This document shows, in pieces, positions 37,533 through 41,521 of a stretch of 64,000 nucleotides of DNA (the first letter of the stretch is position 1; every line of letters starts with the position of its first letter). The stretch lies in assembly GCF_008807075.1 (NCBI RefSeq), contig NZ_CP035632.1, forward strand, positions 1,736,001-1,800,000. Reading direction: 5' to 3'. The notes under the pieces are model-generated. The model was not told where the DNA came from, did not search any database, and saw only the letters and a list, made by a program, of their open reading frames with translations. A program made the position numbers and the translations under genes. The stretch comes from Synechococcus sp. RSCCF101 (GTDB taxonomy: Bacteria > Cyanobacteriota > Cyanobacteriia > PCC-6307 > Cyanobiaceae).

Positions 37533-38825
37533 TCAATGATCCGGGTCAGCGGCCACGGGGCCTCCGGCGGACGCAAGCCGCAGGATGCGCACCCGGGCAA
37601 TGCGGGGGCCGTCCATCGCCTCGATCGAGAACCGCAGACCCTGGAAGCGAAGGCCTTCCCCGGGGGCGGGGATGTGCTGCAGACGCTCCAGCAGAAAGCC
37701 GGCGAGGGTGTGGTGGCCCTCCGCCTCCGGCAGATCGAGCAGCAGCTGGCGGTTGAGTTCCGCAATTTCGTAGTCCCCGGGAGCGAGCCAGGTGTCGGGC
37801 TCGGGTGAATGCAGAGCCCATTCACCGGCTTCGGGCTCCTCCTCCTCCCCCACGATCTCGCTGGTCAGATCCGCCACGGTCACGAGACCCTCGGTGCCGC
37901 CGTGCTCGTCCACCACCACCAGCATGGGCTGGCCGCTGCGGATGACCGGCAGCAGCTCGGCCAGGGAGGCGGTCTCCTGAATGCGCGCGACCGGCATCAG
38001 GTAGTCGATGAGGGGGGTGCCGGGCTGGAGCTGGCCCCGGGCGATCGGCTGGGCCAGATGCCTCAGATCGAGGATGCCGCGCACATCATCCAGGGAGTCG
38101 CCGATCACGGGGAAGCGGGCATGACGGGTGGCGTGCACGGCCTCCATCAGGGAAGCGAAGGTGGTGTCGACCGGCAGCGTCACCATGCCGGCCCTGGGCA
38201 CCATTACCTCCCGCACGGCGGTATCCCGCAGTGAGAACACCCCCTCGAGGATGTTGCGCTCATCCGGCATCAGGCCCGTGACGCCACCGGATTCGATCAG
38301 GGATTCCAGCTCCCCGGCCGAGAGCGCCGGCACGAGAGCATCCCACTGGGAGGGGAGCCCCGCCAGGCGCAGCAGAGCCGCACCGAGCTTCTCGATGGCG
38401 GCCACCAGCGGCAGCAGGCTGCGGCTGACGGACTCCAACAGCGGGGCCAGACGCAGGGCCGCCGTCTCGGGGCGATGCAGCACCCAGGCCTTGGGCAGCA
38501 GTCCCCCGAGCAGGGTCACCAGCACCACCAGGAAGAGGAACACCGCCAGGTCCCAGGCCGGGAGCAGACCGCGGCCGTCGTCCAGGCGGGCGGCCAGGCC
38601 CGGACCCATCCAGCCGCAGGCGAGCACCGCGAGCATGGTCCCCAGCTGGCTGGCCACGAGACCGCGGCGGAGGCGGCGCTGCAGGCGACGGACCGCGCCG
38701 GCACCGGGCCGGCCCTCCTCCTCCAGAACCAGGACGCGGCTGGGACGGAGCGCGATCAGGGCGAACTCGCTGGCCGCAAAGAAGGCCACCAGCATCACCA
38801 GGGGCAGCAGAAGGACGAACCGCAT
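37533..38825 (-). CDS. CNNM/CorC-family membrane protein with CBS domains
   Basis: Hemolysin-C/CNNM type protein (430 residues) linked to magnesium or cobalt transport. Residues about 1-180 are the DUF21/CNNM membrane domain, starting FAASEFALIALRPSRVLVLE. A CBS pair follows at about 205-325 (VREVMVPRAGMVTLPVDTTF, ARFPVIGDSLDDVRGILDLR, QPMLVVVDEHGGTEGLVTVA). The CorC/HlyC accessory domain forms the end (DTWLAPGDYEIAELNRQL, HTLAGFLLERLQHIPAPGEG). All parts are intact. It sits between the oxidoreductase and the iron-sulfur/CNMP fusion gene on the same strand. Confidence 0.93.
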   Translation of the reverse strand: MRFVLLLPLVMLVAFFAASEFALIALRPSRVLVLEEEGRPGAGAVRRLQRRLRRGLVASQLGTMLAVLACGWMGPGLAARLDDGRGLLPAWDLAVFLFLVVLVTLLGGLLPKAWVLHRPETAALRLAPLLESVSRSLLPLVAAIEKLGAALLRLAGLPSQWDALVPALSAGELESLIESGGVTGLMPDERNILEGVFSLRDTAVREVMVPRAGMVTLPVDTTFASLMEAVHATRHARFPVIGDSLDDVRGILDLRHLAQPIARGQLQPGTPLIDYLMPVARIQETASLAELLPVIRSGQPMLVVVDEHGGTEGLVTVADLTSEIVGEEEEPEAGEWALHSPEPDTWLAPGDYEIAELNRQLLLDLPEAEGHHTLAGFLLERLQHIPAPGEGLRFQGLRFSIEAMDGPRIARVRILRLASAGGPVAADPDH

Positions 38826-38881: not shown

Positions 38882-41431
38882 TCAGGCCCTCAGGCGGCGG
38901 GCCATCAGGCGCAGCAGCGAGTCGGAGAACCGGCGCGACTGCAGCAGCAGGGACTCGAAGGCCCGGCGACTGATCACGAACCCCCGCAGTCCCTCCGGAC
39001 CGGCGATCACATCACGCGACCGGCGATCCTGCAGGATCAGCCCCATCTCGCCGACGGTCTCGGCAACCCCGAGACGCACGGGAGCCGCACCCGGTCGCTG
39101 CACCAGGGCTTCGCCCTCCAGCGTGATGATCAACGACTCACTCGGGTCGCCGCGGCGCAGGACCGTCTCGTGCGGCTCCCACGAGCACAGCTCACCCTCC
39201 TCGGCCACGTGCAGCAGGGCTGCCGGCGTGAGGTCCCGCATCCACTCGCAGCGGGCCAGAACGGGGAACTCCGGGCCATCGGGGTGGGGCTCACCCCGCC
39301 GCTGCAGCTCGAGAAACGGCGAGCTGCCCAGGCCGATGCGTGCATCGACCAGCCGCTGGGCGACCCGCTCCGGCCGATGCTGCCGCTCCACCATCAGCAC
39401 CCAGCCGGCGGTGTCCGGATCGGGATCGTGCCAGAGCCGATCGAGCGCCTCATCCAGGGTTCCCTCCGCCGGCATCAGCTCGGGCAGGGGCGGCAGTCCG
39501 GCCGCCCTCAGCTCGGGCCCCAGCAGCTCAGCGGTGCCCAGGCAGCGCTGGTCCATCACAACGGCCAGCGGGCGCAGCAGCGGCAGCGAGCCGCACTCCC
39601 GCAGCAGCAGCGCCCGCAGCGCCAGATCGCGGCGGGCCGTGTCCGCACGGGCCAGCAGCAGATGCCGCTGGCGCTCGCCGGCGGGGCCGAACTCCTCGAG
39701 CAGGCCCGTCCAGGCCGCATCATCGAGCCCGCTGCCGGTGCGGATCCGCTCGAACCGCTCCCGCTGGGCTCCCTGCAGGCTGGAGGGGTCCAGGCTGCCG
39801 AGCCCGGTCAGGGCCACGAACTCCTGCAGGTTCTCCCGGGCGGCCTCCAGGCGCAGGTCGTCGATCTGACGCTGGCGGTCGTCGCGCTCGAGCAGCTCGG
39901 GTGACTCCTCGGCCAGCTGGCGCACCACCTCATGGTGATCGTCGTCCTCCAGTCCGAGCGAGCGGCGCAGATCCTCCAGCTGCAGCAGGGCGGCGGCGCG
40001 CTGCAGGCGACCGCTGCTCAGCTGCTCGCGCATCACCTCCCGGTAGGCCGCGCGGGCCTGACGCTGTCCGAGGGCGGGCAGGGTCTTCACCAGGGTGAAC
40101 ACCTCGTCGGGCCCCATGTCCTCCAGGCGGCGGCCGCCCGTGGCCGTCGCCAGCTCGGTGGCATCCACCATGCGGGCCAGCTGGCGGCGCAGGCTGGTGA
40201 GCTGGCTCTCCCGCCGGTAGGTGGCCTCATCCCGCCGCCAGTTGCGCATCAGCCACATGCCGCTGACAACGGCGACGAGGGTGCGGATCAGCCCGGGGGC
40301 CAGCGGGCCGAACTGGCCCTGGGTGGGGTCGGCGAACCAGAAGAAGGCGTTGATGGCCAGGGCGGTGGCCAGCAACCGCACCCGGCCGCGGGCCGCGCTG
40401 CCGGCCTCGGGATGGCCGTGGGCCTCGAGGCGGCGGCGGATGCCGCGCTCGAGGCGCCGCAGGATCAGGACAGACACCCCGCCGGCCGCGCTCAGCAGCA
40501 GGCTGATCTCCAGCAGGCGCGGCAGCCCGAGCCGGCCGGCCTGCAGCGACCGCTCCGGCAGCCCGACATCAAAGGCCCATTGGCCGCCGGCGAGCGAGGC
40601 GAACCCGCCGGGGCTCTGATAGCCCATCAGCAGAAAGAAACCGATCACCAGCCCCGGATAGGAAAGCCAGGCCCAGTCGAGCCCGGCCTTGCCCGAGAGG
40701 CCCTGCCAGAAGGTCTTCTCCGAGTCGATGTCGATGCAGGGTGCCTGGCAGCCCACGCAGGCCAGCTTCTCGCCGCCGCCAGCTCCCGTCGTCCGGCAGA
40801 TCGACTGGGTGAGGCGGGAGTCGGTGCCCACGTGGGCCGTGCCTCCCAGCAGGCTGCGGGGCCCCACCAGGATCTGCTGCACCGGGCCCATCGGGCAGAC
40901 GTACTGGCACCAGGCCTTGCCCCCGTAGGCCCAGCCCACGGCCAGGGCCGCCAACAGAGTGAGCAGCAGCAGCACGCCGAGGGCCAGGGGCTGGCTGTTG
41001 ACCAGCACCAGGCGCAGCACCAGCCCTGCCATCAGCAGGCTCCACTGCAGCTGGACATGGCGGCGACCCAGCCAGGAGCCGCGCTCCACCGACACCACAT
41101 CCATGCGGCCGCCACGCCCCGGCCGGCGACGCTGCAGACCGAGGGCGCGGAAGGTCTGGGAGACGAAGGCGAGCGGGCAGATGCGGCGCCAGAGCTCGTG
41201 GCTGCCCGCCACGATCAGCAGCACCCCGGACGGGACCACCACGCCCCAGAAGAGCCGGTTGCCGGGGTGGGCGTGGAGCGTGCAGGGGACCTCGCCGGGA
41301 CAGACCGCCGGCAACGGGGAGGCGAAGGGGAGGCCGGTGAAGAGTGACGCGATCAGAACGAGCCAGCCGGCCAGCAGCAGCCAGCGGACCAGGTGGGCCT
41401 GCCGCTCAGGCCAGCGACTGAACACCTGCAT
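38882..41431 (-). CDS. NapH/CcoG-like iron-sulfur membrane protein fused to a cyclic-nucleotide-binding domain
   Basis: 849 residues from the ATG at 41431; a longer reading would start inside tRNA-Met. Residues 1-420 hold several hydrophobic helices and a NapH/NosR-like set of cysteines: C85 (RRICPLAFV), C175 and C179 (WCQYVCPMGPVQ), C212, and C225/C228/C232 (ACVGCQAPC). These could bind one or two [4Fe-4S] clusters. A soluble, helix-rich Arg/Leu/Glu region follows. The last 110 residues are a CRP-like cNMP-binding domain (LCSWEPHETVLRRGDPSESL, GEMGLILQDRRSRDV). The probable role is a membrane redox protein gated by a ligand or interacting partner; electron donor and acceptor are unknown. Confidence 0.82.
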   Translation of the reverse strand: MQVFSRWPERQAHLVRWLLLAGWLVLIASLFTGLPFASPLPAVCPGEVPCTLHAHPGNRLFWGVVVPSGVLLIVAGSHELWRRICPLAFVSQTFRALGLQRRRPGRGGRMDVVSVERGSWLGRRHVQLQWSLLMAGLVLRLVLVNSQPLALGVLLLLTLLAALAVGWAYGGKAWCQYVCPMGPVQQILVGPRSLLGGTAHVGTDSRLTQSICRTTGAGGGEKLACVGCQAPCIDIDSEKTFWQGLSGKAGLDWAWLSYPGLVIGFFLLMGYQSPGGFASLAGGQWAFDVGLPERSLQAGRLGLPRLLEISLLLSAAGGVSVLILRRLERGIRRRLEAHGHPEAGSAARGRVRLLATALAINAFFWFADPTQGQFGPLAPGLIRTLVAVVSGMWLMRNWRRDEATYRRESQLTSLRRQLARMVDATELATATGGRRLEDMGPDEVFTLVKTLPALGQRQARAAYREVMREQLSSGRLQRAAALLQLEDLRRSLGLEDDDHHEVVRQLAEESPELLERDDRQRQIDDLRLEAARENLQEFVALTGLGSLDPSSLQGAQRERFERIRTGSGLDDAAWTGLLEEFGPAGERQRHLLLARADTARRDLALRALLLRECGSLPLLRPLAVVMDQRCLGTAELLGPELRAAGLPPLPELMPAEGTLDEALDRLWHDPDPDTAGWVLMVERQHRPERVAQRLVDARIGLGSSPFLELQRRGEPHPDGPEFPVLARCEWMRDLTPAALLHVAEEGELCSWEPHETVLRRGDPSESLIITLEGEALVQRPGAAPVRLGVAETVGEMGLILQDRRSRDVIAGPEGLRGFVISRRAFESLLLQSRRFSDSLLRLMARRLRA

Positions 41432-41448: not shown

Positions 41449-41521
41449 TGGGGGTCGCGGGGATCGAACCCGCCTTCGGCGAATTATGAGTTCGCTGCAT
41501 TCACCAGATTGCTAGACCCCC
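41449..41521 (-). tRNA. tRNA-Met (anticodon CAT, elongator type)
   Basis: A 73-base cloverleaf on the minus strand. The acceptor stem GGGGGTC/GACCCCC has discriminator A. The anticodon stem GCGAA/TTCGC encloses loop CTCATAA with CAT. The T-arm is GCGGGTTCGATCCCCGC. It lacks the initiator features (unpaired first base, GGG/CCC anticodon stem), so it is elongator Met. A lysidine-modified tRNA-Ile(CAU) cannot be fully excluded from anticodon alone. Confidence 0.92.

Follow-up and report, generated by a model that had tools for sequence, protein, structure and literature searches.

The window analysed here is a stretch of 64,000 nucleotides of the Synechococcus sp. RSCCF101 genome. Its minus strand carries a gene for a protein in which a membrane core is followed by a long helical region and a cyclic-nucleotide-binding domain (CNBD) (Table 1). 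The limits that an earlier note had assigned to this gene from the DNA letters proved exact. A longer in-frame ORF begins at ATG 41500 and would give a protein of 872 aa. This reading was ruled out because it overlaps a tRNA-Met gene (41449-41521, minus strand), and the start is therefore ATG 41431. ORFs on the plus strand over the gene were dismissed as antisense artefacts of high GC. No conserved neighbours of the window gene itself were recognised. A membrane protein gene with CBS-like features as judged by eye (CorC/HlyC-like; 37533-38825, minus) starts 56 bp downstream on the same strand; co-transcription is possible, and conservation of this gene in relatives was not seen.

Table 1. Features of the window gene (positions in the window; residues of the encoded protein)
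Feature	Position	Strand	Remarks
Whole CDS	38882..41431	minus	Fer4_5 membrane core, helical transducer, cNMP-binding domain; 849 aa + stop
Membrane core, residues 1-422	40166..41431	minus	AF2 models, pLDDT 87.7 and 86.6
C44-x5-C50 pair, loop between helices 1 and 2	41282..41302	minus	75/76, other row gapped
C85 in H78-E-L-W-R-R-I-C85-P	41177..41179	minus	Remnant of first CX3CP, first Cys replaced by W81; 76/76
Complete CX3CP motif W174-C175-Q-Y-V-C179-P180	40892..40912	minus	Both Cys 76/76; aligns with NapH CX3CP
Putative [4Fe-4S] ligand set C212-x12-C225-x2-C228-x3-C232	40736..40798	minus	Kept in 75-76/76
Cytosolic helical region, residues 402-745	39197..40228	minus	AF2 model, homologue comparison
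Cyclic-nucleotide-binding domain, residues 726-849	38885..39256	minus	PF00027 above gathering; fold match
Phosphate-binding cassette VGEMGLILQDRRSRDVIA, residues 793-810	39002..39055	minus	E795 and R804 present

The membrane core and its cysteines

The whole protein was modelled with AlphaFold2 (AF2) from a 76-sequence alignment (pLDDT 87.7, pTM 0.69), and the core modelled alone was confident, with a pTM of 0.87. The models show eight membrane-length helices (9-32, 56-75, 120-144, 148-169, 251-272, 305-337, 343-366 and 378-398), followed in the whole-protein model by helices over 402-745 and a beta barrel at 747-821, in agreement with the helical linker and C-terminal CRP-like domain read earlier from the sequence. 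Within the helical region, residues ~440-510 are conserved in most homologues and the remainder is HEAT-like in the longer ones. No solved relative of the core was found by sequence profile, nor by fold (best E 0.72). Fer4_5 was detected at residues 155-189 of the window protein (26.4 bits versus a cut-off of 22, Pfam), and this domain (PF12801) was matched by 76/76 members at E <= 0.05, some of them below the gathering score. By these matches, the core is a member of the Fer4_5 superfamily.

The cysteine sets named by the earlier note were found as described: C85-P, C175-x3-C179-P, C212 and C225-x2-C228-x3-C232. C85, C175, C179, C212, C228 and C232 are present in 76/76 aligned sequences and C225 in 75/76, and from this near-invariance the pattern is more than chance would give. 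The list had nevertheless missed a second conserved pair, C44/C50 (75/76), which is predicted to be extracytoplasmic from the charge pattern. An Agrobacterium homologue keeps the seven core cysteines without C44/C50 (replaced by V), and the pair is therefore probably a dispensable disulfide. The only near-invariant histidines of the core are H78 and H200. Both AF2 models, which hold no cofactor, give low confidence to the loop from C212 to C232; it is the ligand sets alone that are seen, and from them Fe-S clusters may be predicted.

The naming of the protein as NapH-type holds as a distant superfamily relation only. NapH, NosR and RdhC (PceC) (PF12801), for which electron transfer at the membrane was proposed (PMC5928378, PMC8238504), share with the core the membrane helices, the CX3CP motif and a cysteine set suited to a cluster. 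In contrast to them, the window core has one complete CX3CP, the first being W81-x3-C85-P, together with eight helices, a large cytosolic sensor tail and no FMN domain, and the partner of the core family is a cytosolic NAD(P)H reductase. The NapH-like flavinylated systems described have extracytosolic FMN domains, and such flavinylation is underrepresented in Cyanobacteria (PMC8238504). Membership of NapH/MauN (TIGR02163) was rejected, the scores being 10.7-13.7 bits versus a cut-off of 213, and of the two CX3CP motifs of NapH, C175-x3-C179-P alone is complete. When profiles were compared with E. coli NapH (39% probability) and YccM (18% probability), only the surroundings of CX3CP aligned. 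CcoG/RdxA/FixG and YccM (cupric reductase family) are likewise Fer4_5 membrane proteins with Fe-S clusters; the core family differs from them by its sensor tail and its gene context. Membership of CcoG (TIGR02745) was rejected as well (best E 2e-4 among the 76 members, far below the cut-off), and the window protein gave no match to it at E <= 1.

Distribution of the family and genes next to the core

Searches of 60 related genomes and of species genomes revealed a widespread family; the second of them gave 329 loci, the best 80 of which were kept, all 80 being cyanobacterial by title. In an even sample of the class, the core was detected in 49/116 genomes (E <= 1e-40), and homologues were also found on rhizobial plasmids. 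The earlier note had considered that the two halves might be unlinked genes elsewhere. In the cNMP clades they are joined: 57/75 aligned homologues carry a cNMP domain as assigned by our own profile, and one of these 57 tails is degenerate. The core-CNBD protein is not a chance fusion. Cores without a cNMP domain exist and bear other regulators. In representatives, Pfam detected after the core either HEAT-like repeats and cNMP_binding, FHA and cNMP_binding, EF-hands, or no sensor. On the core tree the EF-hand form, present in Trichodesmium, Okeania, Crocosphaera and Microcystis, corresponds to one change, and the four tail labels together to 7 changes versus a shuffled mean of 30; a few rows were labelled by Pfam and the others with our own profiles and a pattern for EF loops, while the EF row L082 was assigned from its clade and L047, labelled cNMP, has a degenerate domain. 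No description of the core-sensor family was found in the open-access literature, and the comparison points to an undescribed family of putatively switchable membrane electron carriers.

Two kinds of unusual copies were seen. L047, from Prochlorococcus AG-412-I05, has diverged, and its CNBD-like tail is degenerate. Two Synechococcaceae genomes that were assembled separately (L070:10007-12719 and L077:10001-12728) encode the core in two ORFs of different frame; in both, the break falls at the same site within helix 6, near residue 316-325, and reflects either a shared frameshift or a real split gene.

In 15 of the best 80 of the 329 loci, the gene immediately after a long core encodes a reductase made of FHA, FAD-binding, NAD-binding and plant-type [2Fe-2S] domains. 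A further genome sample yielded 25 strong reductase matches, of which 19 follow a core in the same orientation at a distance of <=1 kb. The reductase was detected in 17/116 genomes, all 17 with the core (Fisher p = 6e-8, kinship ignored); the profile used derives from reductases that neighbour a core, which biases the count towards linkage. Many of the cores with a reductase partner are short (about 580 aa), their C-terminus being a Thr-rich tail, for instance DTETLARTVAKP. Sensor-less cores lie between a Ser/Thr kinase and the FHA-FAD-NAD(P)-[2Fe-2S] reductase. The kinase is found upstream of most short cores (10/16 by reading, Pfam-checked in two); it is WD40-tailed in those checked and annotated as a kinase in Leptolyngbya boryana. 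Most simply read, it would phosphorylate the Thr-rich tail, upon which FHA would dock the reductase on the core.

A core-reductase pair is also found on conjugative plasmids of Agrobacterium and Rhizobium, where it adjoins a di-haem cytochrome c peroxidase gene (PF03150); on each of the two rhizobial plasmids examined, this gene and the core are divergently oriented. The rhizobial plasmid cores bear FHA, and the single reductase scanned (Agrobacterium) gave no FHA match. Short core matches on Rhizobium plasmids (L130 among them), carrying the annotation '4Fe-4S binding protein', resemble decayed copies, and the single one inspected has a group II intron maturase gene nearby. In eight Nostoc-type, heterocystous loci (L051, L062, L072, L074, L075, L081, L083 and L085), a Cu/Zn SOD gene follows the core-reductase pair; that of L074 was Pfam-checked and shows a lipobox. 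The SOD and peroxidase neighbours, each observed in a single clade, hint at an extracytoplasmic link to oxygen or peroxide. RTX-type repeat proteins are encoded within a few kb of the core-reductase genes in L110, L113, L114, L116, L119 and L120; HemolysinCabind was above the cut-off in 2/3 of those tested and below it in the third, the others being recognised by eye.

No reductase lies beside the window gene, and the nearest in the genome is about 1 Mb off and without FHA. An FNR-Fer2 protein of the same genome (2845703-2847067) has homologues in 7/60 genomes, 6/7 with the core (p = 0.001). It was rejected as an obligate partner, since it is absent from 11/17 core genomes, and is therefore an optional donor at most.

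The cyclic-nucleotide-binding domain and neighbouring cyclases

In the window protein, cNMP_binding (PF00027) was matched at residues 750-831 with 28.8 bits versus a cut-off of 27.5 (Pfam). The barrel superposed on the CNBD of the M. loti channel (TM 0.80) and on CNB-A of PKG II (0.79) in Foldseek, and the top Foldseek matches, obtained via the CNBD, were HCN, SthK and SLC9C1-type proteins. Like the window protein, these consist of a membrane core, a helical linker and a C-terminal CNBD; unlike them, the window protein has a redox-type core, neither channel nor exchanger.

The cassette keeps the cAMP-contact residues G794, E795, R804 and S805 with an E-to-R spacing of 9. In the cAMP/cGMP receptor Clr, the contacts are G85, E86, R95 and S96, with an E-to-R spacing of 9 (PMC10127613). 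Deviations concern surrounding residues only (V for F, and R for A after R-S). The contacts being intact, the window loop is therefore canonical where it matters. The earlier description of the loop as non-canonical thus fails for the window protein but is right for the larger part of the family: among 58 CNBDs in which the phosphate cassette was scored, the Arg is kept in 24 and absent in 34.

The presence of the Arg goes along with that of a cyclase. CHASE2 cyclases were detected at <=10 kb from 14 CNBD cores, all among the 24 of Arg type, and from 0/34 of those without Arg (p = 2e-7, in loci that differ in flank length). Of these cores, 10 belong to picocyanobacterial cNMP loci and four to FHA+cNMP loci, and in three of these four the cyclase is divergent from the core at 203-612 bp. 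A CHASE2 cyclase is also found near the split core of L077. The CHASE2 and cyclase domains were Pfam-checked in eight picocyanobacterial genes, and the other cyclases were recognised by our own cyclase profile. When the association was corrected for kinship on the tree, 2-3 concordant independent pairs and none discordant were obtained, too few for significance.

No cyclase was found beside the window gene, and the three class III cyclases of its genome are 0.64 Mb away. These three are clustered with several CNBD matches within about 30 kb (G000:C1:2403982-2435001). Because of its Arg-type loop, as in Clr, of the correlation between Arg and cyclase, and of the three cyclases in the genome, the window CNBD likely binds cAMP or cGMP. 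In a close relative (L031, RCC307), the loop has lost both E and R, and the CNBD may therefore have other roles.

A proposed membrane electron carrier under second-messenger control

The reading that we favour, and hold to be somewhat more probable than not, is that the protein carries electrons in the membrane through Fe-S clusters and that a cyclic nucleotide, bound by its own C-terminal domain, sets how active it is. The earlier note's proposal of electron transfer governed by a cyclic nucleotide or some other small ligand is supported in part: it fits the Fer4_5 core, the reductase neighbours and the cyclases beside loop-intact cores. Where linked, the cytosolic FAD-NAD(P)H-[2Fe-2S] reductase would be the donor; in the window organism it would perhaps be a ferredoxin or an unlinked reductase. 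The donor would reduce the cytosol-facing sites (C212/C225/C228/C232 and C85/C175/C179), from which the core would hand electrons on, within the membrane or to its other side, and a quinone or an extracytoplasmic acceptor would take them up; the acceptor is the weakest step. Class III cyclases would make cAMP or cGMP, and the 300-residue helical arm would relay its binding from the CNBD to the core, opening or closing the electron path. In relatives, the same core would be controlled by calcium through EF-hands, or by phosphothreonine through the kinase and the FHA-bearing reductase. We infer the presence of clusters, the electron direction, the ligand binding and the gating; what was observed in support is the domain architecture, the conserved cysteines, the swapping of sensors, the linked reductase, kinase and cyclase genes, and the correlation of loop Arg with neighbouring cyclases. 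If true, second messengers directly switch cyanobacterial membrane electron flow via one modular protein family, in which the tail shows the messenger used by each lineage. Signalling by cAMP, Ca2+ and Ser/Thr kinases, whose cyanobacterial targets are poorly known, would be tied to a redox output, and a possible tie to extracellular superoxide would bear on its enzymatic source.

Another reading is a regulated transmembrane oxidase. It would export electrons that come from cytosolic NAD(P)H, either to O2, with superoxide or peroxide formed outside the cytoplasm, or to a peroxidase in the periplasm. Such an oxidase would be the functional counterpart of NADPH oxidases with an Fe-S core instead of haem; this reading seems unlikely to us. 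EF-hand regulation is known for NOX5/RBOH, and the EF-hand form recalls it. In NOX5/RBOH too, cytosolic NAD(P)H and FAD feed a membrane core under EF-hand or phosphorylation control, whereas the core family has an Fe-S core, no haem/ferric-reductase domain and its reductase on a separate polypeptide. NOX membership was rejected, PF01794 giving no match and the bis-haem core being absent; the core is not a NOX because it has no haem domain, and by analogy the system may work like a regulated NAD(P)H-fed membrane oxidoreductase. Trichodesmium and Microcystis have been reported to produce extracellular superoxide or related oxidants. The NAD(P)H reductase partner, the SOD genes of the heterocystous loci, one with a visible lipobox, the divergent di-haem peroxidase of the rhizobial plasmids and the production of extracellular superoxide by cyanobacteria (PMC6247811) all speak for an oxidase. 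However, the SOD and peroxidase links are restricted to one clade each, the core lacks a conserved haem-ligand pair or ferric-reductase domain, and no observation places electrons at the outer face. Slightly less probable again is the fuller version, in which cyanobacteria and some rhizobia would possess a non-haem Fe-S equivalent of the regulated NADPH oxidase. Electrons would run from the NAD(P)H-FAD-[2Fe-2S] reductase through the membrane Fe-S core out to oxygen or a periplasmic peroxidase, and each lineage would use cAMP/cGMP, Ca2+ or Ser/Thr phosphorylation as the switch.

We give the same low probability as to the oxidase to a NapH-like quinol/quinone module, in which the core would exchange electrons with plastoquinone. 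The system would then be a plastoquinone reductase that is fed by NAD(P)H or ferredoxin and can be switched, and would amount to a form of cyclic electron flow. Plastoquinone serves both the photosynthetic and the respiratory chains of cyanobacteria, which suits such a module. NapH-type membrane modules were proposed to be quinol-oxidising (PMC5928378; PMC8238504), but the NAD(P)H reductase partner implies that electrons enter from NAD(P)H, the reverse of NapH, and no evidence of a quinone site was obtained. Rather improbable is a metal reductase of the CcoG type. At the membrane surface it would reduce Cu(II) or Fe(III), serving metal uptake or the assembly of cofactors, at a rate set by the sensor tail. 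CcoG is a Cu(II) reductase with two 4Fe-4S clusters (PMC7558416). Among the weak NCBIfam matches it comes up most often (31/76 members), and the cytosolic reductase would fill the role of its unknown donor; yet every match is far below the family cut-off, and no copper-handling genes were noticed beside the cores, without a systematic search. Very doubtful, finally, is a redox receptor whose Fe-S/cysteine core would sense membrane redox and signal inward via the arm, the tails being output partners and not input gates: all tails are signalling domains, EF-hand, FHA and CNBD domains can act as interaction platforms, and the Arg is lost in many CNBDs of the family, but the conserved pairing with the NAD(P)H-FAD-[2Fe-2S] reductase suggests electron flow and not sensing, and the occurrence of cyclases beside CNBDs with an intact loop suggests that a ligand is the input.
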